64,000 nt of DNA from Candidatus Poribacteria bacterium (GTDB taxonomy: Bacteria; Poribacteria; WGA-4E; WGA-3G), in assembly GCA_003635315.1 (NCBI GenBank), contig PYJD01000017.1:1-64000 (forward strand), given 5' to 3'. Position numbers and translations under genes: made by a program. Each line of letters opens with the position of its first letter. Positions within the stretch are counted from its first letter, which is position 1. The notes beneath the pieces are model-generated. The model had not been told where the DNA came from and did not search any database. It saw only the letters and a list, made by a program, of their open reading frames with translations. Shown one piece after another: positions 29,629 to 49,432 of this stretch.

Positions 29629-30020
29629 TGTACCTCGCGGATACTAACATCTTCCTTGAAGCTTTGTTGGGGCAAGACAAAAAGGATGATGTCCAATCAT
29701 TCTTACAAATTAACGACTTGAGCACAATCTACATAACGGATCTGTCCCTACATTCTATAGGGATTATTCTGTTTCGATTGAAATATTTTACGCTTTTTAA
29801 TTCGTTTCTTGAGGATATAATTGTTGACGGAGTTGGCATCCTATCATTATCCCCAGAAGATCTTAAAACGTTGGAACGCATAGCAGATAAATTCAATCTT
29901 GACTTTGACGATGCATACCAATACGCTGTCGCTGCGAAATATGAGATGCAACTCATTAGTTTCGATACAGACTTCGATCAAACTGAAAGGAAACGAAAAG
30001 AACCCATTGAGGTGTTATAA
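29628..30020 (+). CDS. PIN-domain toxin (VapC-like)
   Basis: A 130-residue PIN-domain protein. It begins [15 protein letters not shown] (first catalytic Asp), and ends with [19 protein letters not shown] and LISFDTDFD (later acidic residues), the arrangement of a metal-dependent ribonuclease. The start is GTG at 29628, overlapping the antitoxin stop by one base, which is a typical antitoxin-toxin coupling. Its TAA stop shares an A with the leuD ATG at 30020. By family it should cleave RNA when the antitoxin is lost. A longer frame starting at 29547 lies inside the antitoxin gene and is rejected. Confidence 0.82.
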
Positions 30021-30601
30021 TGGAAGCATTTAAAGAACATGTTGGATTCGTCGTACCGCTTGACCGAATTAATGTTGATACCGATCAGATTATCCCGAAA
30101 CAATTCCTAAAACGAATTGAACGTACAGGATTCGGTGAATTTCTCTTTTACGACTGGCGTTATCTTGAAAACGGTGATCCAAATCCAGATTTTATATTAA
30201 ACCAACCCCAGTATGCTGATGCAAGTATTCTCATTGCTGGGATTAACTTCGGTTGTGGTAGTTCTCGTGAACATGCCCCCTGGGCACTTCAGCAGTACGG
30301 TTTTAAAGCCATCCTCGCACCCTCCTTTGCAGACATCTTCCGCAACAATTGCTATAAGAATGGCATCCTACCTGTCTCATTACCAGCAGATATCATCTCA
30401 GAACTTAGCAAAGCAGCACACGACACAGAAGGCTATCAATTGATGATTGACCTCGAAGTACAATCAGTCATTTGTCCAGATGGAACTACCCACACATTTG
30501 AGATAGGCAACTTTGAAAAGTACTGTCTACTAAACGGACTCGACGAAATCGGTTGGACACTTCAATACGAAGCAGACATTACAACGTATGAAAACCGATA
30601 G
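30020..30601 (+). CDS. leuD: 3-isopropylmalate dehydratase small subunit
   Basis: A 193-residue LeuD with [31 protein letters not shown] (the signature swivel-domain loop) and [16 protein letters not shown]. It forms the isopropylmalate isomerase with LeuC. Its ATG overlaps the stop of the PIN-toxin gene by one base, so leuD translation is likely coupled to the toxin gene. Confidence 0.96.
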
Positions 30602-30845
30602 ATTTGCCATTCGAAGAACATTAGGTTCGTAGTTATTTACAGATTATTTGCTTAGGTTTGCATAGGCAACAAGGGTTTCTTTATTATCAACAGATATAAT
30701 CTTGGGGATGCTTGTGGTTCTTAGTAGTGCAATTTATTGCGCTTTGCGTAAGTCCTATCGTTTTTAAGTTTCAAATTGGCATCCATTTTGGGAATATGAT
30801 TGAATAATGTCTTGATATTTTAGGTACATTGAATACAATATTTGT

Positions 30846-32312
30846 ATGAAAAAAGAAAAAACAGACAATACCCAAAAGTCCCAATTAGAAATAACGGATG
30901 CTATTTGGGATCAAATACAGACTTTTCTCGCTAAGTGTCCGAAGGTTCGCGTTGGGAGTCCAGAAAAATGTCGTTTGTTCCTCTCTGCTGTTTTGTGGTT
31001 AGCGAAAGAGGGTGTTCCCTGGAGTGGTTTGCCAATATGTTATGGAAACTGGAGAGCAGTTTACCGACGATTTAATAGATGGTGTGAGATAGGAGTTTTT
31101 GAATTACTAAAATCACATTTTCATGAAGATATCGAAATATCATCTATACTTGACGATTTCTATACCAGTCATATTTATGCCAAATCGTTAAAACTCCGTA
31201 TTAAAAAGTCATTGAAATTTCAAGGTTTTATAGTAACAGGTAATGAAATAAGTTTACCAGAAAACCTTGATAAAGAAAAAATTAGAGAATTACACGCGCT
31301 GGCTGTTCAACATAGAATAGAAGAACGTAAAAAAGGTCTTGTCAAGCATGAACAAATGTTGTTACAAAACCTTGCTTCAGGAAAGGAAATAGATCCAGAA
31401 AGAATCTATCCTAAACTGATAGAAATACATTCAGGTACAAAAGAAGAATTACTTTTTAGGTATGCATGTTTACATTGGAGTATTCCGGTTTCTTCAGGAT
31501 ATGGACGAAGATTAAGGTTCCTTGTAATTGATCAACACACCAATAAACTAATGGGTTTATTTGGCTTAGGAGATCCAGTCTTTAGTTTGGGACATCGTGA
31601 CCAATGGATAGGTTGGAATAAAGAAGATCGACTTGATAGACTTCATCATGTTGTGGATGCATTCCTTTTAGGAGCAGTACCTCCTTATTCATATTTGTTA
31701 GGAGGAAAACTAATTGCTTTACTGGCCATTAGCAGTGAAGTACACAATACATTTAAGGAAAAATATAAGGGAAGAACCTCTGTAATCCGTAAACGTAAGA
31801 ATCCTGGGGAAATAGCATTAATTACGACTACTTCTGCACTTGAAAAATCATCACTATATAATCGACTCAAATATAAGAAACACCTTGCTTATGAACGCGT
31901 TGGACATACACAAGGTTATGGTGAATTTCATTTTTCAAATGGAATATACAATTCACTTACAGAATTTGCCAAGTCAAATTCTAATGCTACTGCTAGTCAT
32001 GAATCTTGGGGATCAGGATTCAGAAATAGACAAGAAGTGGTACAAAAAACAATAGGTGCATTAGGGTTACCTAAGAATTGGCTAAATCATGGTATAAAAC
32101 GAGAAATATACGTTGCACAATTGGCAGATAATACTCGTGCTTTTCTTCGAGGAGAGGTAGACAAGTTGAATTATTATGTAAGACCGAAAAATAAATTATT
32201 TAGATGGTTTCGTAAGAGATGGTTGCTTCCACGTAGTATGAGAGATTTACGATATAGAGAATGGGAACCAGAAGAATGGAAATTATGGATCAACGGAGTT
32301 AGTAATGAATGA
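30846..32312 (+). CDS. IS5-type N-terminal domain fused to DUF4338 (DruA-like)
   Basis: Residues ~15-95 match the IS5-type N-terminal domain (DUF4096): VLWLAKEGVPWSGLP, GNWRAVYRRFNRWCEIGVFE. No DDE catalytic domain follows. Instead ~120-420 is a DUF4338 domain, the DruA component of Druantia defence systems: YACLHWSIPVSSGYGRRLRF, LMGLFGLGDPVFSLGHRDQW, IGWNKEDRLDRLHHVVDAF, LLGGKLIALLAISSEV. Its stop overlaps the NurA start by 8 bases, and HerA and a PIN gene follow, so it probably works with them. DUF4338 proteins are also met near mobile elements, so a mobile-element role remains possible. The start has no clear ribosome site. Confidence 0.82.
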   Translation: MKKEKTDNTQKSQLEITDAIWDQIQTFLAKCPKVRVGSPEKCRLFLSAVLWLAKEGVPWSGLPICYGNWRAVYRRFNRWCEIGVFELLKSHFHEDIEISSILDDFYTSHIYAKSLKLRIKKSLKFQGFIVTGNEISLPENLDKEKIRELHALAVQHRIEERKKGLVKHEQMLLQNLASGKEIDPERIYPKLIEIHSGTKEELLFRYACLHWSIPVSSGYGRRLRFLVIDQHTNKLMGLFGLGDPVFSLGHRDQWIGWNKEDRLDRLHHVVDAFLLGAVPPYSYLLGGKLIALLAISSEVHNTFKEKYKGRTSVIRKRKNPGEIALITTTSALEKSSLYNRLKYKKHLAYERVGHTQGYGEFHFSNGIYNSLTEFAKSNSNATASHESWGSGFRNRQEVVQKTIGALGLPKNWLNHGIKREIYVAQLADNTRAFLRGEVDKLNYYVRPKNKLFRWFRKRWLLPRSMRDLRYREWEPEEWKLWINGVSNE

Positions 32313-33459
32313 AACTGTAGATTTCGGCGAGTTACCAAAATCACTAGTTGACGATGTTCTCAAACGAACCGAAGGAATAGGACAAGAGTTATTAAAATCT
32401 TTTGAAGAGTTGCGAAATAAAAGAGAAGTGTGGCGTAAGCAACTCATTGATTCTTCTACGGTAATGCATGATTCCAGTTTACCAGTAACTCAAAGTCCAA
32501 CTACTTGTGGTGTTGACGGATCCTACGCTGTTGAGAGACTTTTAGCTACAGATCTGGTAGTAGCTGGCGCAGTCGCAGTTGAAGGTTTGACCCCTCCATC
32601 GGAAAAGCGTTTCTGGCCAGAACCTAATCATTTTGTCCATGTTGAAACTGAAACCCATAATCCCGATACGAGTACTATCTTACGGGCGGGGATGATTGGA
32701 ATGGAGTTAATTTTAGCCCAACAAGCTCCGCATGATCTTGTTCTTTTAGATGGATCTTTAACCACTCCTGTTATTTACTTTAATCAAGGTTTCAGCAAAG
32801 CCAAGGAATACCTTCATCTCAAAACAGTTAAAGAATATCTGGTTAAGGAAATCAGGCCTTTCCTGGAGGCGTATTACTGCCTTTTAGATCCTCCACGTAA
32901 TGACCGTCAATGGGTAGCTATACCCAAATACACCTCTCGTAGGGAAATAGGTGAAAAATTGGGATGGCCCGATTCTCATGATGATCGAGGATTGCTAAGT
33001 TCTATTTTAGAACCGGGTGAGTATACATCTCCTGCTTTACTTTCTACCTATTCTTGGCATCTCGGTACTTCAGTGGTTAACGAATTCACTGATGTTGTTA
33101 TACAAAACGAGATAGATCAAATCGTTGAACAGATTTTACAATTCTTGAATAGGGTCCATTTTCTTTATTATCGACCTCATGCTTATATGCCTGCTTTACG
33201 TCTGGAGATGAGTCAAACTATTGCTAAAAATCGCCCGAGATTAGGTATCGTTTTACAAGGTATCAAGGACCAGTGTAGCACAGCTGCTATTATGGAGCCA
33301 TATCCCCTTTATCTGGCAGACAGAATGGTCAAGCATTTACCAAGGGCCGTTCCTGCTTTTCGCCAGATAACCAGTCAACATCTTGCAGAAGATTATCAAG
33401 GAAATATTGATGATGTATTCGTTGGTCTTCACAGTTATCGCACAGAATCAGGGAGGTAA
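32305..33459 (+). CDS. nurA: NurA-domain nuclease
   Basis: The 384-residue protein has the RNase-H-like NurA domain: CGVDGSYAVERL (Asp71) and LVLLDGSLTTPVIY (Asp149) carry the metal-binding residues, and TIAKNRPRLGIVLQG and ADRMVKHLPRAVPAFR lie in the C-terminal half. NurA is a 5'-3' nuclease that is threaded through a HerA hexamer, known from archaeal double-strand-break resection and from bacterial defence operons. It overlaps the upstream DruA-like gene by 8 bases and is 2 bases from the HerA gene. Confidence 0.88.
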   Translation: MNETVDFGELPKSLVDDVLKRTEGIGQELLKSFEELRNKREVWRKQLIDSSTVMHDSSLPVTQSPTTCGVDGSYAVERLLATDLVVAGAVAVEGLTPPSEKRFWPEPNHFVHVETETHNPDTSTILRAGMIGMELILAQQAPHDLVLLDGSLTTPVIYFNQGFSKAKEYLHLKTVKEYLVKEIRPFLEAYYCLLDPPRNDRQWVAIPKYTSRREIGEKLGWPDSHDDRGLLSSILEPGEYTSPALLSTYSWHLGTSVVNEFTDVVIQNEIDQIVEQILQFLNRVHFLYYRPHAYMPALRLEMSQTIAKNRPRLGIVLQGIKDQCSTAAIMEPYPLYLADRMVKHLPRAVPAFRQITSQHLAEDYQGNIDDVFVGLHSYRTESGR

Positions 33460-33461
33460 AA

Positions 33462-35384
33462 ATGTCCAATCAAAAATTAAGTCAATTAGTTGATCAATCC
33501 GAAAGAATTGGTGTCATTGGTTCCCCATCTTCCACAACAGAACTTGCTTTGGATATTTTGGCTACTGCTGTTGACAAAAAGTTAGTCGGTGAATTAGCTA
33601 TTTTCGACTATATACAAGACGGTCTTGACCATTACGCGTTGGGACAGATCACTGAAATCGCCCTGAAAAATATTTGGCACGAAGACCCTACGATGCGGAG
33701 TTTGATTCGGCAACGTGGCAAAGTTGATGCAGTTAGTGAACGGCAGGACACACATCAGGGAGAAATGATTGTCAGTGCTGTCTTTTCCGGTGAAAACGGA
33801 AATTACCGTCCAAGCAGTTTGGGGACGGTTCCAGCTACAGGAACTCCTATTCAACAAGTGAATAACGATGTTCTGGATGTCTTACTCAATCCATATAAGG
33901 AACAGATTTTCTATTTGGGGCACGTCTATGGTTCAAAACCCAAATTACCTCTATGGTTCAAACATTTTGATACTGGTGAAGATGGAGCAGGTGAGGCATA
34001 TCACTTGGGAATATTTGGTAAGACCGGTTCTGGTAAATCAGTCTTGGCAAAAATGATCATGTTGGCTTACGCTCGCCATGAAGAAATGGGTATTTTGGTG
34101 ATTGACCCGCAGGGAGAGTTTTCGCTAGATGCATCGGGAAAAGGGGTTTTGGGAAGCTTTCAAATTCCTCTAAAAGATGTTCTGAAAGATTTAAACAAAA
34201 CCACACAAATCATCAGTGTACAAGATCTGGTTTTAGACAGATGGGAACTATTTTCTGAGATACTCTACGAATCTACCTTTTTTGAACACCTCAGCATTCC
34301 AAAAGGCGAAAATCGGGAAATAGCCTCCAAAATCCTAATCGACAATCTTCCAAAAAAGAAAGTAAAACTAGCAGATTTACATAAACATGAAGCTTTTAGT
34401 CAAGCATGGTCCCTTCTTGGACAAGATGATATTCAAAAGATCTTCTATCGTACCGCTTCATCTCGTGACCGTTTTAATTCCGTGTATCAAGATGCCAACT
34501 CAGACGAATTTTATAACAATGTTTGGGCACCTATTGCTCGATTGTTTGATGCTAATCGTGACGATGCTCAAACTGTAGAGAATATCTTATCTAACTTATT
34601 CGACAATCAGAACAAACCTTTGATTATTGTGGATTTGACAATTAATGATGAAACAGATCTATTTTGGAATGACACTATTCAGGCACTAGTAATAAAAAGA
34701 CTTTTAGAAGGTATCCGCCTATCTGCCGAACGTGCCTATTCTGAAAAACAAAACCTTAACACTTTGGTTTTAATGGACGAAGCTCATCGTTTAGCTCCGG
34801 CTGAAAGTCCTGATAATGATACGATGAAGCAAGTTCGCAATATTTTTATTGATTCAGTAAGAACAACTCGCAAGTATGGTGTAGGTTGGATGTTTATATC
34901 CCAGACTTTATCTAGTCTCCACCGTGAAATTGCCCAACAGCTGCGCATCTACTTCTTTGGCTTCGGGTTGTCAATGGGAACAGAATTCCAAGCGTTGAGG
35001 AATCTTGTTGGTGGACGTAGCAAAGCCCTAGATCTCTACCAACTCTTCCGGGACCCACAGTCTTCGTTTGATATTGCTTCGCGTGAGTATGCTTTTATGA
35101 CCATTGGTCCTGTTTCACCTCTTTCATTTGCTGGCACTCCGCTTTTCTTAAATGCCTTTACAACTCCCGATGATTTTTTGAAAGAGAATCAAATTTCCCA
35201 ACAACAACAAAGTAAAAATGAATCCAAAGCGATTCCTTCTGCCACTTCTGAACTTTCTCACGACGAAAAGAAAGAATTGATTCGGGAAATGCGTGGCTCA
35301 ATGAAAGGCACATGGGGAAGTACAGTTGAAGAAATTGATGCTTATCTTGCGTCAGAGAGGGAAGCATGGAACAGAAAGTTTTAG
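33462..35384 (+). CDS. herA: HerA-type DNA-translocating ATPase
   Basis: A 640-residue FtsK/HerA-type ATPase. Walker A is GKTGSGKS at 186-193 (IFGKTGSGKSVLAKMIM), Walker B is LVLMDEAHRLAP with Asp439 and Glu440, followed by VRTTRKYGVGWMFISQ, the HerA sensor/arginine region, and a C-terminal FFGFGLSMGTEFQALRNLVG. An N-terminal HAS-barrel-like region precedes the motor. GGGAGGT is 5 bases before the ATG. It should form the hexameric motor for NurA. The PIN gene starts within its last 19 bases. Confidence 0.92.
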   Translation: MSNQKLSQLVDQSERIGVIGSPSSTTELALDILATAVDKKLVGELAIFDYIQDGLDHYALGQITEIALKNIWHEDPTMRSLIRQRGKVDAVSERQDTHQGEMIVSAVFSGENGNYRPSSLGTVPATGTPIQQVNNDVLDVLLNPYKEQIFYLGHVYGSKPKLPLWFKHFDTGEDGAGEAYHLGIFGKTGSGKSVLAKMIMLAYARHEEMGILVIDPQGEFSLDASGKGVLGSFQIPLKDVLKDLNKTTQIISVQDLVLDRWELFSEILYESTFFEHLSIPKGENREIASKILIDNLPKKKVKLADLHKHEAFSQAWSLLGQDDIQKIFYRTASSRDRFNSVYQDANSDEFYNNVWAPIARLFDANRDDAQTVENILSNLFDNQNKPLIIVDLTINDETDLFWNDTIQALVIKRLLEGIRLSAERAYSEKQNLNTLVLMDEAHRLAPAESPDNDTMKQVRNIFIDSVRTTRKYGVGWMFISQTLSSLHREIAQQLRIYFFGFGLSMGTEFQALRNLVGGRSKALDLYQLFRDPQSSFDIASREYAFMTIGPVSPLSFAGTPLFLNAFTTPDDFLKENQISQQQQSKNESKAIPSATSELSHDEKKELIREMRGSMKGTWGSTVEEIDAYLASEREAWNRKF

Positions 35385-35833
35385 ATATTCACTCATCTGG
35401 TTCCGAAACCACGTCAGTGTTCTTGGATACCTCAGTTCTTATATATTACCTTGAAGATATTGAACCGTATTATATTTTAGCAGAGGAAATATTCAATGAA
35501 ATTAATGATGACAGAATTAGAGGTTTTCTCTCAGCAATATCAGTGACAGAATTTGTAACTAAGCCGTTTGCAGATGGAAAGGTAACAGATGTTGAACGTT
35601 TCAAACGGTTTCTCTCCACATTATCAATTCAAGTGCTTACAGTTACCTATGAAATTGCGGAACGAGCGGGGAAACTTCGTGCACGATACCCAAGTATCCG
35701 AACCCCTGATGCTTTAATTGTTGCTACGGCTTTAGAAAGTGGTTGTAATATATTTGTTACCAACGACAAAAATCTGAAGAAACTGGAAGATTGTGGATTA
35801 ACCGTAATTATACTTAAGGATTTCGTTGAGTGA
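35366..35833 (+). CDS. PIN-domain protein at the end of the HerA-NurA module
   Basis: A 155-residue PIN protein. The core begins TSVFLDTSVLIYYL (Asp21), with ISVTEFVTKPF (Glu), RTPDALIVATALESG (Asp) and IFVTNDKNLKKLE. These are the metal-binding residues of VapC-type RNases. No antitoxin gene is adjacent. Its ATG lies 19 bases inside the herA end, which points to joint translation with HerA rather than a separate toxin-antitoxin unit. Confidence 0.82.
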   Translation: MEQKVLDIHSSGSETTSVFLDTSVLIYYLEDIEPYYILAEEIFNEINDDRIRGFLSAISVTEFVTKPFADGKVTDVERFKRFLSTLSIQVLTVTYEIAERAGKLRARYPSIRTPDALIVATALESGCNIFVTNDKNLKKLEDCGLTVIILKDFVE

Positions 35834-37003: not shown

Positions 37004-37204
37004 TTTCTAATGGTATCATCTTGAAAGATAGTAAAATAATTGCTATTAGTGTAAACCCCACCAAATGATGATTTTACCCATTTTTCTAAAAAATTGAATA
37101 TAAAATGAAGAAAATATCTATACCTAACAACTAACATTACCAAAAGCTATTTTCTTAGCACAAACATCCCGTTTGTACCTCTTTTTGACACAAACTAAGA
37201 GTGA

Positions 37205-37228
37205 AATCAAGGAATCAACGGTATGAAT
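37205..37228. repeat. Dispersed repeat copy (plus orientation)
   Basis: AATCAAGGAATCAACGGTATGAAT; close inverted copies lie at 46521-46543 and 53549-53572, and related units at 26138-26206. All four lie in intergenic gaps. Confidence 0.55.
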
Positions 37229-37676
37229 ACCTTAATGGCATTCCCGTGCTACAGAATATTGGAAAACGACCAGCATATTTCATGAAAGATAACGTTTCCC
37301 TGTATTAAAAACTATTTGGTGGCAAATTAGGTTAACATAAATATCAGGACTTACCCTGAAAGCAAATATTCGGATGAAGGTAGGGAAGGATGAAATCCAC
37401 CATCCACAGTTCCACCCTTCAAATCTTCCAATTCCGTACATTTATGGGAAGTAAATAATAAGAGAATTAATGATGACTATCTATAAAAACGATCCTAAAT
37501 ACAAAATTATCTTTATGTCAAAAAATCTGCTATATTATACTGGTTGGAATTGTCAAAATTCACATGGACAACAAAAACACAAAATCACACTTTTTGCAAA
37601 TTCTTATAAAGTCAATTCAAAGTGGAGTGAAGTCAGTCTACGACAGTGGTTAGAGGGGTAATTTACACCAATTTCA

Positions 37677-37705
37677 ATGACACAGAATGTGTCAAAAAGT
37701 GTAAC
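37677..37705. repeat. 29-bp repeat with GACACA/TGTGTC palindrome, inverted copy
   Basis: The sequence is the exact inverse of 26604-26632. It contains GACACA-GAA-TGTGTC (37679-37693), a perfect 6-bp inverted pair, and may be a regulator site. Confidence 0.5.
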
Positions 37706-38088
37706 TTTTTTCATTTTTTTGACACTTTTCGACACATGGAAAAATTCAACATTTACGCGAATTATTATCAGAGAATTTAGGATTAAAGGTCTGTTTTTGC
37801 ACCTTATTAGTTGTCTGGATATTAGGATTAAAAGTTATATTTTCGACTATTAATACTTTTGGCATTCTAAATAAAAATGTCTCTTTTTAAAGCATAACCT
37901 TTAGGGTGTGCAGTATAAGATGACATACCAAATAAACCTGAAATGCATCATCATTTCTTAGAATTTGGATGACTTCCAAAGAAACACAAAGTGCATCCAA
38001 AAATGTGTATAAGAGGAATTATTATAGTATCTCGGTTGAATGAATCTCCCTAACTCATACAAATTCGAAATAAGATAAGTGAAACAAA

Positions 38089-39750
38089 ATGAACACACAT
38101 ACAAATAAAATCAACCTTAACCTTAGCGATAACGCAGAAATCACTGTAAATGCATTTATAGAACCAATTCAGCATACTGCAGGAAATTTTCACGAAAAAT
38201 GGGATGCATTAGCAAATCTACAAGCTGCAGAACCAAAAAGTCAGTATTCTCATTCCGATTTTCGTGAGTTTCTCCCATCCGATGCAGTCTCGGTTGGGGA
38301 ATGTTGGGAAATTAAACAGACAACTGTTAAGAACTTACTAAAACAACTCCATCCCAATCCTTCTCTCGAAATGCGAGTGGAAATGTACGGTATAGAGGAA
38401 GCAAAAGGTCTACGCGCATGTTTACGAGCATACAACAATCAACTCACCCATATCGTATTTCGCATTCATGCCGAATTCGCTCTCACGGATGGTTGGTTTA
38501 CACCTTCACAATTTGCTGGACACCTTATAATTGACCGTACAACAGAATCAATCATTTACTTTCAAATGGGTGTACCGGAAGGCACATTAAACTTCGATGT
38601 TCATTGGGAAACAATATTAGAAGGTTGGGATAAACCACGGTGGATCACTGATTGTGGTTACTGCTCGAAAATGGAACTCTGGGCAGGTTCTGAAGATATA
38701 CTAAAAGGTATTCAATACACCCAAGCCATTACACAAGAGCAAGCAGAGCACAACCTAATTCTGCAATTCTATGATTCACAAAAGATTAACTGGGTTTCGT
38801 TAAAAGAAGCACTTGAATTAGCACCAAAGCAACAGAAACCTGTTCATGCTATTTCACTTGATGGACCACTTACCGATGAAGCATGCTGAGGGAGCGGAAA
38901 AGACTTGAGGGCAGGTGTCCTCGGAAATGAACGGGTCATTAAGTTCCTGAACGATAACTTCATCAACACATGGGTTTCCAATTTTGAATCTGGACGGAAA
39001 CCGAGTTACCGGGAATACATCGCTAAAAGATATGATGGCAATGCAAAATCGTTTGATACGAATAATGCCTTAGCACAAGCAATCAAAGAGGGTTGGCATG
39101 AAAGTTCACCTGTTGATTGCTTTGTTATATCACCTGATTTTGAAATGATAGGCAAACTACCCTTAAACAAATATCTTTACGATGGACATGATTGGGATGG
39201 TGGTAGAACAAGAGCAGAAAACTACCGACTCTTTCTCATTGAGTCTATAGAAAGAAAATATCCAGGATTTAATACTGATAATTCATTCGCTTACCTGATA
39301 GAAGACGGGGAAGATACACAGGAACAAGAAAATTCATTAAATCCTTACATAACTGGTTTAAACGTAGTGCTCAATTCCCAGCAATCCACATTAGATGTAG
39401 TAGATGTTGTAAGAACTCACAAGGCAGGTTTTCAGCAATCCACTATAATAAATATAGATACCACCGCATTCGAAAATGGTGGTACACTCACAATTGATAT
39501 ACGATTTGGCAGTGCAGAATTCTTCACTTCATGCTATTTATACGAAGGAGACATCCAATTCCCACAAGAACGTGGACAACGGTACGATCAATCCATCGCA
39601 AATGCAACTGATATTCCGCAAAATGGAACAGCGAAAATTTCATACCCATTCTACCATAGCCAACATTTCAGGCTTGCATTAGCAGTCTCGGAAATAATGG
39701 AGAGCAAAGATTCTGTCAATGCATTTCAAGCAAGGATATCTGTGGAATAA
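38089..39750 (+). CDS. Selenoprotein N-like protein, copy 1 (TGA at 38887 = Sec267)
   Basis: Read through TGA at 38887 as selenocysteine, this encodes 553 residues. The N-terminal ~230 residues include FLPSDAVSVGECW, RIHAEFALTDGWFTPSQFAG and VPEGTLNFDVHW, which parallel HAEF, FTPAQFTG and LNVDMEW of vertebrate selenoprotein N. A Trx-like domain follows: INWVSLKEALELAP, KPVHAISLDGP, then C266-U267-G-S-G-K and FINTWV, as in the SCUGSGR and FISTW of SelN. The C-terminal ~100 residues (AFENGGTLTIDI to ISVE) are a beta-rich domain shared by all copies. There is no signal peptide or EF-hand. It is the first of five tandem genes. Confidence 0.9.
38907..38922 (+). promoter_or_regulatory. SECIS-like hairpin of copy 1
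   Basis: GAGGGC-AGGU-GUCCUC forms a 6-bp stem (one G-U pair) with a GU-containing tetraloop. The AGGU loop starts 23 bases after the TGA, within the normal bacterial range. The GC-AGGU portion equals the apical part of the E. coli fdhF element. Confidence 0.8.
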
Positions 39751-39827
39751 ACAAGGTGCCGCATACAAATAGATATTTTTGATCGGTAAATCCCAAATCA
39801 AAACTGCAAAAAAAATAGAGAATATTG

Positions 39828-41357
39828 ATGAACACAATATCTGATAAAATTACACTCACACTTAACAACGATACGAAAGTATCCTTAAAAGGTTATATTG
39901 CTCCAATAGAATACACACAATACAACTTCCATGTTGAATGGGATGTATTATCAAATCTACGAGTAGCTGAACCGGTAAAACAGTATCCCACATCTGTGTT
40001 CATGGTATTTCTTCCTTCGAAATCCATTTCGGTCGGTGAATGTTGGCAAATCAAGGACGGAGTTGTAGATATACTAAGACAACTCCACACCAACCCTACC
40101 TTGAATTTAGACTGCAATAATGGGGATTCACTCGGTCTGTGGGCATGTCTACGCGCATATAATGATGAGTATGCTGATATCGTGTTTCGAATTCATGCAG
40201 AATTCACACTAAAGGGCGGGAGATTTACTCCCTCACAATTTACTGGTCACCTGGTTATAAACCGCTCCAAAAAAAGCATTGCATCCTTTAATATGTATGT
40301 GCCTAACGGTACACTTAACTTTGATGCTTATCAGAATGACGTTGGAAGCGAAATTGGATATTGTCCAAAAATAGAACTCCGTTCTGATATCCCCTTTCAG
40401 GATACTGAATACACTACTTCAATCACCCAAGAAGAAGCCGAACGTATATTGATATTACGATTCTACAATTTTGTAAAAATTAACTGGGTTTCACTGGAGG
40501 AAGCACATGAAATGGCAATTGCTCAACACAAACCCATCCATGCTGTCGCATTAGATGGACCACTTACTGACGAATCGTGCTGAGCCAGTGGAAAAGGCTT
40601 GAGGGCAGGTGTCCTATCTAAAAACACAATTATTGAATTATTGAATAATAATTTTATCAATACTTGGGTACCCAATTCTGAATTAGGACGTGTACGTAGA
40701 TTACGAGTACCGATCGCTAAAAAACGCGAACGGGAAGGAAATCCATTCGACGCAACACATCCATTAGTACAAGCAATCCTTAAAGGCACTAAAACTGGAT
40801 CAAGAAAAGGCTCCCCAGTAGACTCCTATATCCTATCACCTGAGCTTGTGTTGTTAGGAAAAAAACAGATAATGGAACTCGAAGTCAACGCGGGACCGGG
40901 TATACCTACAAGTATTGAAAATTACCAAAAGTTTCTAATGGATGCATTGGAGGGAAAAGAACCAGGATTAGGGAATATCATACTTACCCCTGAGCACTCT
41001 TCAGAGGAGGTGTTGGACGTTATTAGAACACCTACTGTAGCTTATTTAGATTATACTGTCATCGTAATTGATGTAACATCTTTTGAGAATGGAGGTACAC
41101 TCACAATTGATATTAAAATCGGTAGAGAAAAAGGTGATGGGGAGTTTTATCTATTTGATGAAGACGGTAGACTATCCACTGATGAAGAAGAGCCGAGTGA
41201 TGCACTTGCTGAAACTTGGGGTGAACCAGATGATGAATTACAGATTAAACACAAATTTGACCGTGGTCAGGTCTTTAAATTAGGTGCGTCAGGTTACTGG
41301 TACGAAGGTGAATTCTGTACCAACGCTTTTCTGGCAAAAATATCTGTAGAGGAATAA
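39828..41357 (+). CDS. Selenoprotein N-like protein, copy 2 (TGA at 40581 = Sec252)
   Basis: 509 residues, with the same domain order as copy 1: FIAP-type start (NDTKVSLKGYIAPIEY), CLRAYNDEYADIVFRIHAEF, FTPSQFTGHL, INWVSLEEAHEMA, KPIHAVALDGP, then C251-U252-A-S-G-K. Here Ala replaces the usual Gly after Sec. The beta-rich end is VIDVTSFENGGTLTIDI to ISVEE. The ATG at 39828 is preferred over a TTG one codon before; both are preceded only by a weak AGAG. It is separated from copy 1 by 77 bases and from copy 3 by 2. Confidence 0.9.
40601..40616 (+). promoter_or_regulatory. SECIS-like hairpin of copy 2
   Basis: The same GAGGGC-AGGU-GUCCU hairpin, starting 17 bases after the TGA at 40581. The outermost pair is lost (G opposite A), leaving a 5-bp stem. 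Confidence 0.75.
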
Positions 41358-41359
41358 CA

Positions 41360-42946
41360 ATGAAGACTTCTCAAAATAAAATATCTCTAACTCTTCGTAC
41401 TGACACAGAAGTATCTATAAATGGGTACATCGCACCAATTGAATACTCACAATACGATTTTCACCTAAAATGGGACGAATTGAAAAACTTGCATGCCGTT
41501 CAACCCAAACAAAAATATAATACCTCTATATTCAACGATTTTCTACCAGAACAATCCGTTTCTGTTGGCGATACATGGGAAGTCCAACATGATGGTGTGG
41601 TAGAACTCCTCAAACAACTCCACCCTCAACCAAACTTGGATATGCACATTAATTCAGGAGATTCTAACGGTTTGTGGGCATGTCTACGCGCATATAATGA
41701 TGAGTATGCTGATATTGTGTTTCGAATTCATGCAGAATTCAAATTGAAAGAAGGATGGTTCACACCATCCCAATTTACAGGACATCTCATCATGGATCGA
41801 CACAGCGAAACGATAGCATACTTTCGGATGTACGTCCCCAAAGGTGTACTCAACTTTGATATTAATTGGGACAGAACAAATGATGACGGCTCGGTTTATC
41901 ACATTACAGATATTGGTTATTGTCCTAAAATAGAATTAGAAGCTGGAAATAAAGATATCCTTCAAAAGGTGGAATCAATAGACGGTATTTCAAAAGATGA
42001 AACTGCCAAGAAACTAATACAGCATTTCTATAAATCACAACACATCAATTGGGTATCATTGGAAGAGGCGTTAGAAATGGCACCAGTAAAACAAAAACCT
42101 ATACACGCCATTTCAATTGACGGACCACTTGCTGACGAATCCTGCTGAGGGAGCGGAAAAAGCTTGAGGGCAGGTGTCCTCTCTAAAAATGAAATTATCA
42201 ATTTTTTGAATAACAACTTTATCAATACATGGGTACCAAACTCTGAATTGGGTCGTATTGATAGTCTAATCAACCCAATCGCAAAAAGACGCGAAAGAGA
42301 AGGAATTACTTTCGACACAAGTCATCCTTTAGCACAAACAATCATAGAAGGCTGGAATACTGGATCAAAGAAGGGATCACCTGTTGATTGCTTGATAATC
42401 TCTCACGATTTTAACCTATTAGGTCGACAACCTGTCAATGAATTACGTGAGGACAGTGAAAATAGAGGGATGAATAGACAGGAGTTCTATCTTACATTCC
42501 TAAAAGAGGCTATGGAAGGGAAATACCCCGGATTGGGAAACATCAGACTCAGTCCTAAATACCCCTCACAAGAAGTATTGGACATTTTTCGAGATCCCAA
42601 TAACGGCTATCAAGAATATAATGTTGTGATAATTGATACAAGAGAATTTGATAACGGAGGAACACTAACATTCGATATTCAAGTTGGAAGAAGTGACGCC
42701 GTTGGATTCTTCTATCTGCTCAACGAAGATAGCGAACCTCCCACAGATGAACGTGTTCCTGAAGACAAACTCGCATCTATCTGGATATCACCAGGAGATA
42801 AACGACAACTTACCTATTCTTTCGAGCAAGGACAGATCTTTAAAATGGGTGCTACAGGATCATCGTGGAAAAACAAAGGAACTGTAAATGCCTTTCATGC
42901 CAAAATCTCGGTAGCGGAAAAGCAAATTGAAAAAACCACAAAATAA
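41360..42946 (+). CDS. Selenoprotein N-like protein, copy 3 (TGA at 42146 = Sec263)
   Basis: 528 residues. Shared motifs: TEVSINGYIAPIEY, FLPEQSVSVGDTWEV, GLWACLRAYNDEYADIVF, RIHAEFKLKEGWFTPSQF, TDIGYCPKIELEAG (very like DIGYIPQMELEATG of vertebrate SelN), INWVSLEEALEMAP, KPIHAISIDGP and C262-U263-G-S-G-K. The end domain is IIDTREFDNGGTLTFDI to KISVAE. GAGGAATAACA precedes the ATG, and the stop of copy 2 is only 2 bases upstream, so it is in the same operon. Its last 20 bases overlap copy 4. Confidence 0.92.
42166..42181 (+). promoter_or_regulatory. SECIS-like hairpin of copy 3
   Basis: GAGGGC-AGGU-GUCCUC, identical to copy 1, starting 17 bases after the TGA at 42146. Confidence 0.8.
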
Positions 42947-44471
42947 AATTACACTTCAACTTAACAATGAAACTGTAGTATCTGTCACAGGTGTTATCGC
43001 TCCGATTGAGCACATGAATCCCAACTTCCATGAAGAATGGGATGCGTTGGCAAATCTGCGCGTTGCTGAACCAGAAAAGATGTATCCTACTTCGGTTTTC
43101 AGTGCGTTCCTTCCAGATAGACCTGTCTCCGTTGGAGACTACTGGCAGATTGATAACCAAGGGGCACTTACCTTGCTGAGGCAATTTCATCCCAAACCGA
43201 ATCTGGATATGCACATTAACGTGGGAGATTCACGCGGTTTATGGGCATGTCTCCGCGCTTACAACGACCAACTCGCCGATATCACCTTCCGCATCCATGC
43301 GGAATTTGCATTAGATGACGGTTGGTTCACGCCTTCACAGTTTGCCGGACATCTGGTGATCAATCGCATTAACAAGAGTGTAACATTTTTCCAGATGCGG
43401 GTTCCTGAAGGGACATTGTTCGATGTTAATTGGAAAAAATATAAAGACGATTCTGACTTCAATTATAGTACTGGTGGTGGAATTTGTCCGCAAATTGAGC
43501 TTCGTGCAGAAATGTGTTATGTCCCTCAAGAAACAGCATTCACAACTTCAATCACCTGTGAAGAGGCTGAAAATACGCTAATACAACGCTTCTATAAGTC
43601 GCAGCAAATCAACTGGGTGTCATTTGAAGAAGCATTAAAAATATCACAAGAACAACAGAAACCTATCCATGCCATTTCAATTGATGGTCCCCTCGCAGAC
43701 GAAGCATGCTGAGGAAGCGGCAAAAACTTGAGGGCAGGTGTCCTCTCCGATGACCGAATCATCAATTTCCTTAACGAATATTTCATCAGCACATGGGTGC
43801 GTAATACCGATTTGAGACACATGCGGGACACCAAGGGATTTAGTGGAATGTCTCCGTTGGCACGCACAATCGTTAGTAATAAATGGTGGACAGGTCCAGT
43901 AGATACCTGGGTTATATCTCCTGAACTTGAAGCGATAGGACATGTTGCCGTCAATGATTACCTTGGGGAAAATCGACGGGAAGACGGCACTTTGGAAAGC
44001 CAGAATTACCTCTTGATTCTCAAGGATGCTTTAGAAGGAAAACTCCCGGGATTCGGTAACACTGTTATTACACCTGAGCAGCCTTCACAACAAATACTCG
44101 AAGCTTTTCGCACCGCGGAATATGGACATCAAGATTACACTGTTATTATACTTGATGTCACAGCGTTCGAAAGCGGCGGTACACTCATTATCGACTTTGA
44201 GGTAGGTAGCGGAAAGGCACACGGACAATTCCATCTGCTTGATGCCGACACTAAACTCATTTTTGATGCTGAACACAAATATCCGACAAAACCACTTTTT
44301 GACAGATCCATCAACACGGTTTGGGGTGATCCCTGTGAAACCATGCAAATCATCCATCCTTTTGAAAGAGGACAACTGTTTAAATTAGTTGCCTTAGTTG
44401 CTACAGGATGGACCTCCGATGAGATGGGGAGCATTAACGCTTTTCAAGCAAAAATCTCTGTAAGCGTTTGA
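42927..44471 (+). CDS. Selenoprotein N-like protein, copy 4 (TGA at 43710 = Sec262)
   Basis: 514 residues, starting with TTG at 42927 (KKPQNKITLQLN), which overlaps the end of copy 3 by 20 bases and aligns with the ATG starts of the other copies. Motifs: FLPDRPVSVGDYWQI, GLWACLRAYNDQLADITF, RIHAEFALDDGWFTPSQF, INWVSFEEALKIS, C261-U262-G-S-G-K, and an end domain VTAFESGGTLIIDF to KISVSV. It is visibly richer in G and C than copies 1-3. Its 3' end has been rearranged: a second end-domain copy follows out of frame (see 44464-44745). Confidence 0.9.
43730..43745 (+). promoter_or_regulatory. SECIS-like hairpin of copy 4
   Basis: GAGGGC-AGGU-GUCCUC starting 17 bases after the TGA at 43710; the intervening bases differ from copy 1, but the hairpin is unchanged. 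Confidence 0.8.
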
Positions 44472-44745
44472 AGAGGGTGGCACACTTAGTATCTACGTCA
44501 AGGTCGGGAGTGGAGACGCGTCCGGTTCGTTTGACCTATTTGATAGCGACGCGGAACTCCCAACAGAAGGGATGCCTGAGGGAACCCTCGTCTCGTTCTG
44601 GGGACTTGAACCCAATACAGCCACAACAATCAGACATTCTTTTGAGCGAGGCGAAGTTTTTAAACTCGGTGTCACCGGTGATCAGTCGAGTAAAATAGGA
44701 GAGATAAACGCCTTCTACCTAAAGATTTCTGTAGAGGAAAATTGA
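44464..44745 (+). pseudogene. Remnant end domain of a sixth selenoprotein N-like copy
   Basis: From 44464 the frame encodes AFEEGGTLSIYVKVGSGDA, GSFDLFDSDAELPTEG, RHSFERGEVFKLGVTGD and INAFYLKISVEEN, ending at 44745. This is the beta-rich C-terminal domain of the family without its N-terminal and Trx-like parts. It overlaps the end of copy 4 in another frame, so it is not fused to it. It is best explained by unequal recombination that deleted most of a sixth gene. Confidence 0.85.
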
Positions 44746-44746
44746 A

Positions 44747-46375
44747 ATGAAAACCTTAGGAAACAAAATCACACTTAATCTTAGCGACGATGCAGAAGTC
44801 ATCGTCAAAGGCTTCATAGCGCCGATCGAATATACACAATACAACTTCCATGTGGACTGGGATGAGTTGGCGAACTTTCGGGTCGCTGAACCAAAGAAGC
44901 AATATCCCACATCCGTTTTTCAAGCGTTTCTTCCATCGGAACCGGTTTCAGTCAGTGAACCTTGGGAGATTCAAGAAGAGGGTACGCTAACATTACTAAA
45001 GCAACTTCATCCCAATCCACGTCTGAAACTAACCATTGATTCGGGAGATTCGCGTGGTTTGTGGGGGTGCTTACGCGCTTACAATGACGAACTCGCTGAA
45101 ATTGTGTTCCGTATCCATGCGGAATTCATCATGAAAAGCGGCAAGTTTACGCCCTCCCAATTTGCAGGGCACCTTCTTATTGACCGACACCAAGAGAGTG
45201 TCGTTTCCTTCAAGATATATGTGCCTCCAACGACAATTAACTTCGATGCCGGTTGGACACGAGACGAGGGAACAGCTGTGGAGATTGGTTTTTGTCCGAA
45301 AATAGAACTCTCTGCTGGCACTCCAACCCATGATGTCGAGTTCACCGCATCAATCACGGAAGAAGAAGCCGGACGCGCACTGTCCTCACATTTCTACGAG
45401 TTTCAGAAAATTAACTGGGTATCGCTGGAGGAAGCGTTGGAGATGGCACCCACACAAGGGAAACCGATCCATGTAATCTCCGTAGATGGACCGCTCTTCG
45501 ACGAGGCGTGCTGAGGGAGTGGTAAAATCCTGAGAGCAGTTGAGCTCTCTGAAAATCGAATCATAGAATTCTTGAACGAAAACTTCATCAACACGTGGAT
45601 CCCCAACGCGGAGTTAGGACGAACACCGAGTTTGCGAGAACCGATTGCAATACGACGTGAACGAGAAGGTAAAACCTTCGACATAAGTCATCCCTTAGCA
45701 CAAACAATTATAAAAACATGGAAAAAGGGGTCACCAGTGGATTGTTTGGTTATCTCACCAGAGTTTGAAGCGATGGGTGGTATAGACTACAATATATTTC
45801 TTGACAACATGACCGAACCCGAACACGCGGATTACATGTTCCTTGACAAACTGACGGAGTCTGATGACCATGCCGAACCTTACCTAATATTTCTAAGGGA
45901 ATCTTTGGAAGGAAAACGTCCCGGACTGGGGGATCTCATCCTTACACCAGAGCAACCCTCAAAAGAAGTCGTAGATACTTTTTGTACCCCGAGGCTTGCA
46001 CATCAGGACTATACTGTTGTCTATATTGATGCCACGGCGTTTGAAGGTGGTGGCACACTCACTGCCAACATCCAAGTCGGTAGGGACAACGCAATAGGTA
46101 TATTCCATCTACTCGACGGTGATAAAAAACTTCCAACGGAAATACCACCTGATGGTATTGATACTGAAGAATGGAACGACCAAGAAAGCGATGAATATAA
46201 GAAAGCACTTGGTGCACTTACCAGAGTCTGGGGAATATTCCCCGGTGAATCTGGACAAATTACCTATGAATTCGATCGTGGACAACGTTTCAAATTTTGT
46301 GCAACTGGAGATCAATGGGGTGGAATAGGTGATATAAACGCTTTTCATGCTAAAGTTTCTATAGAAGTAAACTAA
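44747..46375 (+). CDS. Selenoprotein N-like protein, copy 5 (TGA at 45512 = Sec256)
   Basis: 542 residues. Motifs: AEVIVKGFIAPIEY, FLPSEPVSVSEPWEI, GLWGCLRAYNDELAEIVF, RIHAEFIMKSGKFTPSQF, INWVSLEEALEMAP, KPIHVISVDGP and C255-U256-G-S-G-K, then FINTWIPNAELGR. The linker before the end domain is longer than in other copies (ATAFEGGGTLTANI to KVSIEV). GAGGAAAATTGAA precedes the ATG. The base composition resembles copy 4 (G+C-rich) in its first half. Confidence 0.9.
45532..45549 (+). promoter_or_regulatory. SECIS-like hairpin of copy 5, covarying stem
   Basis: GAGAGC-AGUUGA-GCUCUC gives a 6-bp perfect stem with a GU-containing hexaloop, 17 bases after the TGA at 45512. The stem bases differ from copies 1-4 on both strands, yet pairing is kept; this supports a real hairpin. 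Confidence 0.8.
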
Positions 46376-46520
46376 TCGTAGTAAGTACGCTCCTAATAGA
46401 AAGGTTCACAACCATGCCCTAATATCTATTTAACAACTCAAGGTTTGCATGTTAAAGCCTTCCTAATAACCCACCAATTCCGCAGAATTAGATAGAAATC
46501 CTATATATAGTCAATATAGC

Positions 46521-46789: not shown

Positions 46790-47995
46790 ATGAAGAACTA
46801 TAAAATTCTTTCACTGATTCTTATTCTATTTACCATCGTTGGTTGTAATACAAAACCAAAAGGTCCCAGTCATCTATCAGTAGGAAGAAGTAAACTCATT
46901 AAGAGTGGTCTCGCATTAGATTCAATTCCACATCTAAAAGAAGCAGAAAAAATTGCTGAGGATCAGTCAGAAGCACGCGCGCTATTAGTGATTGCATATT
47001 CTCAAGGACTTGCTACAAAAGCAGCAAAAAGTTTTGGACGCGAAGCTGAATTTAAACAAGAAAGAACAAAGAGAATTGCTGCAATGAATGAGGAAGAGAT
47101 AAGCAAATTGATTGAAATACTGAGTGTACAATCTCAAATACGAAAAAATGGATTAAATGCTTTAGCTGAAAAGGGAACCGATGCTGCAGTTCTTATTGTT
47201 GACAACATAGCTAAAAACGCATATCCAGATGCAAACACAAACCTGTTATCTGTGTTAGTTCAGATTGGATCTGATGCAGTTGATCCTATTCTAAATGGAC
47301 TTAATGATACCGATGTAAATCCTTCAGCAAAAATAAAACTCATCAGAGTCATCGGCGATATAGGGGATAACAAAGCACTTGAGAAATTAGATGCTATTGA
47401 TAGAGAAAGTATGGATGACGCTCTAAGGATGGAAATCCTTACAACGCTATATAAACTTGGAGATAAAAAGCATAAAGCTGAAATTACAAAAGGGTTAACA
47501 TCCGATGATGTAGGCGTTCGTCGCGCATCTGCCAAAGCAATGAAAGATTTCGCTAATGTTAATGAGAACATATTAATATCCGCATTAAATGATAGTGATA
47601 CTCTGGTGGTTTCTAATATTGCAAAAGCATTATCTGTACATAAGACAAAAAATGCAGTAAAACCGTTGGTAGATATACTGAAGAGTCAACATGACAAGGC
47701 AACAAAACAAACAGCAATTAATACGCTTACCGATTATACCAATGCTGGAGCAGGTCTTTCAAAAGGCTTAGCAAAACATCTCGCTGAAATGTTAATCAAT
47801 CAAGAAGTAGACAGTGCTGAAGACCGTGTCCGAGTTGTACAACTTCTCAAAAATGACGCTTTGGTAAAACAACTTAACGCTCTCAGACTTGTTGATGATA
47901 TAGACAGTAAACTCTATGATTACTCTCAAAAATATGAGGATAGTTCATTTGTTAAGACTGAACTGAATGATCTTTTTGAACAGATACGAAAATAG
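46790..47995 (+). CDS. HEAT-repeat lipoprotein, copy A
   Basis: The 401-residue protein starts with a lipoprotein signal (hydrophobic SLILILFTIVGC, Cys19). The mature part is alpha-helical with HEAT-like repeats, for example DAVDPILNGLNDTDVNPSAK, ALRMEILTTLYKLGDKK, DVGVRRASAKAMKDFANVN and LVVSNIAKALSVHKTKNAV. It is likely a membrane-anchored scaffold. It is 200 bases from a paralogue (48227-49432) with the same layout; no partner is known. Confidence 0.82.
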   Translation: MKNYKILSLILILFTIVGCNTKPKGPSHLSVGRSKLIKSGLALDSIPHLKEAEKIAEDQSEARALLVIAYSQGLATKAAKSFGREAEFKQERTKRIAAMNEEEISKLIEILSVQSQIRKNGLNALAEKGTDAAVLIVDNIAKNAYPDANTNLLSVLVQIGSDAVDPILNGLNDTDVNPSAKIKLIRVIGDIGDNKALEKLDAIDRESMDDALRMEILTTLYKLGDKKHKAEITKGLTSDDVGVRRASAKAMKDFANVNENILISALNDSDTLVVSNIAKALSVHKTKNAVKPLVDILKSQHDKATKQTAINTLTDYTNAGAGLSKGLAKHLAEMLINQEVDSAEDRVRVVQLLKNDALVKQLNALRLVDDIDSKLYDYSQKYEDSSFVKTELNDLFEQIRK

Positions 47996-48095
47996 ATTCT
48001 TAGTTTGTATTTTCAATAATATTTTCATAAACCATATCTTAGTTTCCACTATAACAAATGTAACATGGTAGAATCTATATACATATAAAAAATAC

Positions 48096-48124
48096 TTGAC
48101 ACAAATATGTGTCTGATTTATTAT
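48096..48124 (+). promoter_or_regulatory. Sigma-70 promoter overlapping a GACACA/TGTGTC palindrome
   Basis: TTGACA (48096-48101), 17 bases, TATTAT (48119-48124): a near-ideal promoter ~100 bases before the second HEAT lipoprotein gene. The palindrome GACACA-AATA-TGTGTC (48098-48113) covers the -35 and the spacer, as a repressor operator would. Confidence 0.6.
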
Positions 48125-48226
48125 AGTAAAATTGGGATTTACTCTGTTTAATCATAAAGAACTCATTATTAACAATCCCTATTTATTGCTCTTACGCTGA
48201 TGTTAGAAGGAGAAAACGAACGTAAC

Positions 48227-49432
48227 ATGAAAAAATTTTTAACGATATGCCTTATCTTAGCATGGGTTGTGTCGTTGGGTTGTAAACAAGAACAGATCAT
48301 TCCTGAAATCTCACCAGGCAGAACAAAGTTGTTAGGAGCTGGTCTTGCCCTTGAAGCTGTTGAACACCTCAAACGCGCAGAGATCGAAGAAGAAAACAAA
48401 GTTGAAGCCCAAGCTCTTTTGCTCATTGCTTATAGTTACGCACTTTCACAAGAAGCCACTTTATTGAAAAAACGTAATTTGCAGACAGAATATCAGAACG
48501 AACGCACGAAACGACTGGCTGAATTAAACGACTCTCATATAAAAAAGTTATTCCTAATCCTGAGAGAAAAACACAGGGTTCAAAATGATGTAATACAAAT
48601 TCTCGCAGATAAAGGTTTAGACGTCATACCTCTAATATTACAGGATTTCGTTGATCAAAAATATAGACAAGCACACGGGGACTTTCTCAGTGTATTAAGA
48701 AAAATCGGTATAAACGGTTTTGATTTAATATTCACTGCTATTGAGAATCCTGATATTTCCCTCGCAGCAAAGGTTAATTTAATCCAAATTATCGGTGAAA
48801 AAGGTGACGTATCCACACAAGGACGGTTAGAATCTACTAAGAACAAAATAACCGATAAAGGGCTAAAAATGGAAATAAATGCTGCACTTTATCGACTTGG
48901 AAAGAAAGAATACAGTAAACAAATTGAAGCAGGATTGACGGATAAACACGTTGGTGTAAGACAAGCCGCTGCAAGATCTATAAAACTACTTAACAAACCA
49001 TCCACCTCAAATTTGATTACGGCACTCAAGGATACTGATGATAGTGTACGCCAGCACATTGTTATCGCATTACAAGAGCACATTGACATTAATGCCGTAG
49101 ATAATCTCTTTGATTTACTTACTAATAATGATTCAAGCGATAACACTAAACAAGCTACTGTAAATACACTGGACTATTATGCCAAGAACGGCTTAGCTTC
49201 CGGATTAGCTCATCGTTTAATCACTCTCTTGACAAAATCAAATATTGAGAACCACAGAGACAGAATACGTATAACGCAACTTCTTGGAAGACCCGCACTG
49301 ATAAAGCAAATAACAAATGCCGATCCTTACGATAATCTACCATCAAAAATCTATGATTACTTTGATACTCAAGAAGATAATAACTTAGTTAAAGCAGAGC
49401 TTAACAAAATACTACTTATACTCGAAAAGTAA
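48227..49432 (+). CDS. HEAT-repeat lipoprotein, copy B
   Basis: A 401-residue paralogue of copy A. The signal is KKFLTICLILAWVVSLGC (Cys19). The repeats are similar (INGFDLIFTAIENPDISLAAK, KGLKMEINAALYRLGKKE, HVGVRQAAARSIKLL, DDSVRQHIVIALQEHID) and both start their mature parts with a SxGRxKLxxxGLALxxxxHLK pattern. The ATG at 48227 is preferred; AGAAGGAG lies 12 bases before it. Confidence 0.82.
   Translation: MKKFLTICLILAWVVSLGCKQEQIIPEISPGRTKLLGAGLALEAVEHLKRAEIEEENKVEAQALLLIAYSYALSQEATLLKKRNLQTEYQNERTKRLAELNDSHIKKLFLILREKHRVQNDVIQILADKGLDVIPLILQDFVDQKYRQAHGDFLSVLRKIGINGFDLIFTAIENPDISLAAKVNLIQIIGEKGDVSTQGRLESTKNKITDKGLKMEINAALYRLGKKEYSKQIEAGLTDKHVGVRQAAARSIKLLNKPSTSNLITALKDTDDSVRQHIVIALQEHIDINAVDNLFDLLTNNDSSDNTKQATVNTLDYYAKNGLASGLAHRLITLLTKSNIENHRDRIRITQLLGRPALIKQITNADPYDNLPSKIYDYFDTQEDNNLVKAELNKILLILEK

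Follow-up and report, generated by a model that had tools for sequence, protein, structure and literature searches.

In-frame TGA as a putative selenocysteine codon in a tandem array of five selenoprotein N-like genes of a Candidatus Poribacteria bacterium

Does TGA mean stop or selenocysteine (Sec) in a run of short, paired open reading frames (ORFs) of a Candidatus Poribacteria bacterium? The window analysed here is a stretch of 64,000 nucleotides (assembly GCA_003635315.1, contig PYJD01000017.1, positions 1 to 64,000 of the forward strand), which presents ten apparent ORFs at 38089–46375 on the plus strand. A preliminary description, made from the letters alone, had paired them into five selenoprotein N (SelN)-like genes in which the first ORF ends with a TGA directly after a Cys codon. 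This pairing holds, as the ten ORFs are five frames, each of which stays open through one TGA. The reading of the TGA as Sec in these genes is strongly supported by sequence comparison, and Sec is almost certainly inserted in the living cell. The array contains the following elements, where bSECIS denotes a bacterial selenocysteine insertion sequence.

38089–39750, plus strand: SelN-like gene 1, 553 amino acids, putative Sec at residue 267, terminal stop TAA
38887–38889, plus strand: putative Sec TGA of gene 1
38907–38922, plus strand: bSECIS-like hairpin of gene 1, 6 base pairs (bp), loop AGGU
39828–41357, plus strand: SelN-like gene 2, 509 amino acids from the ATG at 39828; a start at the TTG at 39825 is also possible
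40581–40583, plus strand: putative Sec TGA of gene 2
40601–40616, plus strand: bSECIS-like hairpin of gene 2, five of six pairs formed
41360–42946, plus strand: SelN-like gene 3, 528 amino acids, putative Sec at residue 263; structure predicted
42146–42148, plus strand: putative Sec TGA of gene 3
42166–42181, plus strand: bSECIS-like hairpin of gene 3
41978–42538, plus strand: Sec domain of gene 3, predicted to be thioredoxin-like when modelled separately
42927–44471, plus strand: SelN-like gene 4, 514 amino acids, TTG start, terminal stop TGA
43710–43712, plus strand: putative Sec TGA of gene 4
43730–43745, plus strand: bSECIS-like hairpin of gene 4
44461–44739, plus strand: remains of a sixth unit, limited to the C-terminal domain (last ~94 residues), in a frame that differs from that of gene 4
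44747–46375, plus strand: SelN-like gene 5, 542 amino acids, putative Sec at residue 256
45512–45514, plus strand: putative Sec TGA of gene 5
45532–45549, plus strand: bSECIS-like hairpin of gene 5, shifted register GAGAGC-AGUUGA-GCUCUC

The five proteins, 509–553 residues long, share the motif DE(A/S)C-U-(G/A)-S-G-K-x-L-R at the Sec site without exception, as had been proposed; one of them (P0001) is 46–48% identical to the other four. A search of the whole genome found seven such genes, five in the array and one on each of two other contigs (C18 and C21), and all seven have a single Sec-site TGA. The same search found one fragment besides, at 44461–44739, which retains only the end of the C-terminal domain and bears out the suspected extra decayed copy. 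It adjoins the end of gene 4 in a different reading frame, and this points to recombination among the copies.

We collected 307 domain matches spanning more than 200 profile positions, which reduce to 267 different sequences, some of them differently cut pieces of one gene. Four stop short of the Sec site and 263 cover it. The site is TGA in 262, Ser in one and Cys in none, and the residue directly before it is Cys in all 263; this recurrence at one site excludes a chance origin of the TGAs. Five sequences have two TGA codons, three of which are gene 4 of the array including its terminal TGA. Open frames through TGA would equally be expected if the codon were decoded as Cys or Trp through general reassignment or suppression. 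However, of the 37 other long ORFs in the window, 6 are TGA-terminated, and their frame closes again within 0–40 codons; with so short a continuation, TGA also acts as a normal stop in this genome. The genome moreover encodes full Sec machinery (see below), and neither a Cys nor a Trp sense codon occupies the site in any of the 263 sequences, so that we assign reassignment a negligible probability.

The codons that follow the TGA are constrained beyond their amino acid meaning. In the 186 regions compared, codon +7 (Arg) was always AGG or AGA, against 27% elsewhere in the same genes, codon +11 was CTC in 179, against 18% of Leu codons elsewhere, and codon +2 was AGC or AGT in 159, most of the others being Thr or Asn codons. 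The 45 bases 3′ of the TGA, taken from 261 genes and amounting to 185 distinct regions once a truncated one was dropped, can form a hairpin, GAGGGC-AGGU-GUCCUC or the alternative register GAGAGC-AGUUGA-GCUCUC, whose loop begins 23 nucleotides (nt) after the TGA. In the better of the two registers six pairs were formed in 177 regions and five in the remaining 8, whereas synonymous re-encodings using the codon frequencies of the family, scored alike, gave 4.0 pairs on average. The minimum free energy (MFE) over 39 nt was −12.0 kcal/mol for the regions versus −8.0 kcal/mol for the re-encodings. Paired synonymous third positions (codons +7 and +10) covary: AGG occurs with C in 131 regions and with T in 14, AGA with C in none and with T in 14 (Fisher p 1e-12, uncorrected for descent).

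According to the bSECIS model, as given in the parts of PMC13188914 used here, the upper stem has 4–16 bp, the loop has 3–9 nt with a G in its first two positions, the distance from the TGA is 16–37 nt and the MFE is −7.5 or lower. The array hairpins satisfy this model as there described, with 6 bp (5 bp in gene 2), a loop of AGGU or AGUUGA and a spacing of 23 nt. The MFE of the 45-nt array regions ranged from −9.2 to −12.3, some pairs outside the hairpin being included. An Rfam search over 38000–46400 at E ≤ 5 returned one chance match and no SECIS family.

The preliminary description had asked whether selA, selB, selC and selD are encoded elsewhere in the genome (4.33 Mb, 50 contigs, 90.2% complete). 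All have counterparts above the curated cut-offs: a tRNA-Sec gene (76.5 bits) adjoins selB (368.5 bits), and selA (599.1 bits) and selD (365.5 bits) lie elsewhere. ARAGORN also called the tRNA as tRNA-Sec, with anticodon tca, and selD (L027) is itself a Sec gene with an in-frame TGA in VKCAGUASK. Fourteen weaker tRNA-Sec model matches in the genome were all below the cut-off. The specificity of the models is imperfect, since they scored above the cut-off in 5 (tRNA-Sec) and 2 (selB) of 14 control genomes. Across the phylum, selB was above the cut-off in 75 of 84 genomes and tRNA-Sec in 74; among the 64 genomes bearing the SelN-like family, the numbers were 59 and 57.

If the TGA were an ordinary stop, each pair would encode an N-terminal protein of ~260 residues and a second protein initiated at a nearby TTG, and the ORF list does contain ten ORFs, a TTG start following every TGA. 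Selection speaks differently. The ratio of nonsynonymous to synonymous substitution rates (dN/dS) of the five genes against a close relative was 0.09–0.27 before the TGA and 0.08–0.23 after it; as judged from these sequence comparisons, both halves are under purifying selection, in agreement with the earlier argument from their conservation that the genes are not pseudogenes. Besides this similarity on either side, the residues encoded between the TGA and the following TTG, G/A-S-G-K among them, are conserved and align with human SelN, the hairpin and the codon bias follow the TGA, and the TGA falls inside the modelled thioredoxin-like domain described below. We therefore consider ordinary termination very unlikely. 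The selenocysteine reading of the preliminary description is thus supported by the Sec machinery, the bSECIS-like hairpin and selection on either side of the TGA.

What are these proteins related to? A profile of the five sequences matched a provisional human SelN sequence with E 3.9e-44 (set for 1e6 sequences) over human residues 252–374 and 398–500, and reported none of 200 shuffles of that sequence at E ≤ 10. In BLAST, the five array proteins were 27–30% identical to it (E 3e-32 to 7e-31), and all 231 distinct family proteins matched it at E ≤ 1e-5. Human SelN isoforms presumably differ by a 34-residue shift, and residues H293, G315, N340 and W453, as they are presumably numbered, agree with the provisional sequence. 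It also agrees at nine of nine residues named in the portions of PMC8967691 used (R5, Q8, R27, H52, S78, R291, H389, U462 and R466), while N204, as numbered in the portion used of PMC8584023, mismatches at 204 and matches at 238, a discrepancy that the shift would reconcile. On these alignments, homology to human selenoprotein N, Sec on Sec, is clear. The proposed kinship with SelN thus stands over most of the human luminal part, with U on U462 of the provisional sequence, whereas the EF-hand and the membrane anchor have no counterpart; for this reason we call the family SelN-like and not SELENON proper.

A structure prediction, also suggested earlier, was run with AlphaFold2 on the gene 3 protein together with 41 family sequences and gave a mean predicted local distance difference test score (pLDDT) of 87.6 and a predicted template modelling score (pTM) of 0.72. 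Because a fold search with the whole chain gave no information on the Sec domain, this domain was modelled alone (pLDDT 89.9, pTM 0.86). The resulting model matched six PDB chains at E ≤ 0.001, all of thioredoxin fold, with template modelling scores (TM-scores) on the query of 0.38–0.47: 7tkv (two chains, Thioredox_DsbH protein), 2ju5 (DsbH), 3ira (a Methanosarcina mazei domain), 3ph9 (AGR3) and 1sen (endoplasmic reticulum protein Rp19, which we take to be ERp18). The Cys-Sec pair, residues 56–57 of the model, lies between a strand (42–47) and a helix (61–69). The Sec domain is thus predicted to be thioredoxin-like, the Cys-Sec pair coming after its first strand and ahead of the helices. The C-terminal domain (residues ~403–520) is strand-only in the AlphaFold2 model and is probably a beta-sandwich. 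In the N-terminal part, Cys108 is invariant in 41 of 41 sequences and aligns with a Cys of the provisional human sequence; that it partners the Cys-Sec pair is a guess.

Sec domains gave weak Thioredox_DsbH matches in Pfam in 15 of 41 cases (best E 0.0018). Pfam, NCBIfam and PHROGs contained nothing above the cut-off for the five array proteins, and only weak, scattered matches were obtained with the 41-member alignment. Sequence searches of the PDB (2026 copy) found no match to the family, and a viral fold library yielded nothing at E ≤ 0.001. Some genomes of family f1, and members of other taxonomic families in the phylum, have forms without the C-terminal domain. Seven loci of another family of the order (L133, L134, L138, L139, L141, L142 and L144) encode such short forms, which also occur in tandem, three in genome G013 and four in G014. 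Long forms of ~650–680 residues exist as well; they seem to carry the C-terminal domain twice, because C-terminal-only matches adjoin in frames of 390–470 residues.

A number of observations weigh against the picture drawn so far. The array is described here from DNA sequence and predicted models, and the human SelN sequence used in all comparisons is provisional, not a database record, though presumably right. Of the 64 family-bearing genomes, 5 are without selB and 7 without tRNA-Sec above the cut-off, and three, 73–83% complete, are without both. The MFE beats 99% of synonymous encodings in only 17% of the regions and 95% in 42%, and these small fractions make the energy signal per gene moderate; the hairpin of gene 2 forms five of six pairs. 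On the tree, the covariation reduces to 8 independent pairs with 3–5 changes in the same way and none in the opposite one, and the sign test is not significant alone. The only sense codon seen in place of the Sec TGA in any family copy is a Ser codon at L095 (5645, plus strand), in the motif CSESGK and within a long open frame, and L031 and L065 have a second internal TGA. Before the TGA of gene 3, the ratio of the proportions of nonsynonymous and synonymous differences (pN/pS) was used in place of dN/dS, as dS was not computable, and dS is near or past saturation in several gene pairs. Finally, Foldseek returned weak matches for the whole chain (TM-score on the query ≤ 0.18), mostly to beta-sandwich proteins, with the matched domain not indicated.

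The explanation that we regard as very probable as a whole is an array of five selenoproteins with a SelN core, which receive Sec through SelB and the hairpin and act as Cys-Sec reductases with different clients. SelB would bind the hairpin that follows each TGA, its loop beginning 23 nt downstream, and deliver Sec-tRNA-Sec, so that each message would yield a full-length protein of 509–553 residues with a neighbouring Cys-Sec pair. Such a protein would consist of an N-terminal beta-rich part, the thioredoxin-like Sec domain and the strand-only C-terminal domain. Its Cys-Sec pair may cycle between the selenol/thiol and selenenylsulfide states, reducing oxidised cysteines of client proteins in the cell, and the old paralogues could serve different clients selected via the N- and C-terminal domains. 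A disulfide or sulfenic-acid reductase activity appears likely to us, and a cytosolic location about equally so; no signal peptide was apparent by eye in the array proteins. Client specialisation as the reason for the many copies is offered tentatively. The proteins could instead contain Sec and serve in peroxide removal, selenium holding or partner binding through the C-terminal domain. In favour of such roles, the vicinal CU differs from the usual CxxC or UxxC, and several copies have lost or gained the C-terminal domain, which consists of strands only. Yet the predicted fold is thioredoxin-like and places CU after the first strand, ahead of the helices, and the short forms without the C-terminal domain retain CU; we hold these roles to be possible but the less probable choice.

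How widespread are such arrays? Poribacteria is a group that includes sponge symbionts. A family match was found in 64 of 84 genomes of the phylum: in all 58 of this bacterium's own taxonomic family, in 2 of 2 and 4 of 9 of two others, in none of 3 in a fourth and in none of 12 further out. Genomes of this first family have 1–18 matches (median 9, a hand count, the best 17 candidates having been scored in many genomes), and matches overcount genes, as fragments and split domains are included. In five near-closed genomes of 1–3 contigs, where all candidates were scored, a Sec-site TGA was present in 15 of 21 (G080), 12 of 15 (G081), 9 of 10 (G083), 8 of 11 (G082) and 5 of 10 (G079) matches by hand count; the matches without it do not reach the Sec site. 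G079 has one decayed copy with six stops besides these. In G080 a split copy was seen (C1:3785456–3786972), in which profile positions 1–252 and the Sec half, 253–517, abut as if frameshifted near the Sec site. A scan with two N-terminal peptide patterns confirmed 127 relatives, and the best 80 of these 127 represent 71 loci, all from Poribacteria; we do not claim that the family is restricted to this phylum. Plasmids, phages and viral contigs gave no family match, nor did the remnant at 44461–44739 match phages.

Arrays with gaps of 0–2 or −4 bases are common among the relatives. Such short or overlapping junctions suggest co-transcription, and the five genes of the array are probably co-transcribed. 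The array, which had looked new when first described, is real but not unique, as such arrays recur across Poribacteria. The array proteins are 46–56% identical to the nearest paralogue in their own genome and 65–89% to the nearest outside protein among the loci compared; as outside relatives are closer than own paralogues, the copies predate the divergence of these species. For the four focus rows shown, a quick tree likewise places the paralogues as old. These distances also bear on whether the array might be an assembly artefact or a row of pseudogenes, as the remnant unit inside it and the 20-base overlap of the gene 4 start with gene 3 could suggest. Paralogues of 46–56% identity are too distant for a duplicated assembly of one copy, arrays are also found in single-contig genomes such as G081 and G083, and both halves are under purifying selection, which makes this explanation extremely unlikely.

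Around the array, ~1.1 kb without a long ORF lies directly 5′ (37004–38088) and is a possible regulatory region. Two adjacent HEAT-repeat genes with N-termini that look lipoprotein-like by eye directly follow the array (46790–49432), and a DruA/DUF4096 protein, a HerA-like ATPase and two PIN-domain genes are encoded close to it (29547–35833).

The preliminary description had stated that SelN-like proteins were already described in Poribacteria; the open papers searched neither support nor refute this. In the open-access literature, which leaves most subscription papers outside the search, no paper contained both 'Poribacteria' and 'selenoprotein'. The terms looked for do not occur in the deep-Sep paper (PMC12013277), and none of selenoprotein N, SelN and Poribacteria occurs in PMC9312934. 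The 2026 inventory of 119 prokaryotic selenoprotein families and subfamilies (PMC13188914), in the sections used, lists no selenoprotein N in its Table 1, where the CU-motif families are others; it cites 57 and 63 genes for the largest bacterial selenoproteomes. We do not claim that SelN was never reported in bacteria. Since no PDB sequence matches the family and the three-dimensional structure of SEPN1 was stated in 2020 to be unsolved (PMC7474598, in the passage used), soluble-looking bacterial relatives without a membrane anchor would open a route to the structure and chemistry of this disease protein. With 5–15 Sec copies per genome and a Cys form in none of the sequences compared, why Sec is kept also becomes testable.

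Among known systems, the DsbH/DUF255, AGR2/AGR3 and ERp18-like proteins resemble the predicted fold of the Sec domain. A CxxC motif is typical of those families, whereas the SelN-like family has a vicinal CU (262 of 263), not CxxC or UxxC. Animal SELENON (SEPN1), an endoplasmic reticulum protein tied to the redox regulation of SERCA and calcium, whose loss in humans causes muscle disease, shares a core over human residues ~152–588 with FRIHAEF, QFTGH and SCUGSG(R/K)xLR. Human residues 1–150, with the membrane segment and the calcium-binding EF-hand, have no bacterial counterpart beyond a few residues, and no EF-hand was among the Pfam matches of the family at E ≤ 1. Unlike the human protein, which ends where that domain begins, the bacterial proteins often add the C-terminal domain, and their genes have a bacterial-type hairpin after the TGA and many copies per genome. 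With the families of PMC13188914, as far as its sections used describe them, the array shares the in-frame TGA, the downstream bSECIS-like hairpin and the selABCD machinery.

The hairpin has a parallel in the selenocysteine redefinition element (SRE) of the SELENON mRNA, which likewise lies directly after the Sec TGA; the likeness is one of position. In the passages used of PMC3541580 and PMC8704476, the human changes G463V, R466Q and R469W/Q lie in the SRE and cause disease; these residues, G463, R466 and R469, correspond to +1, +4 and +7, are conserved in the bacterial family and stand just before or in the bacterial hairpin. The SRE differs in being eukaryotic and an aid to a SECIS in the 3′ untranslated region, and the shared position may reflect common descent or a similar need answered independently. 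It is rather improbable, in our estimate, that selenoprotein N is a bacterial-type selenoenzyme shared by animals and sponge-associated bacteria via gene transfer, and that the SRE is what remains of a bacterial SECIS located at the same codons. Nevertheless, a bacterial hairpin just after the TGA, like the human SRE, makes an evolutionary link between the two testable.

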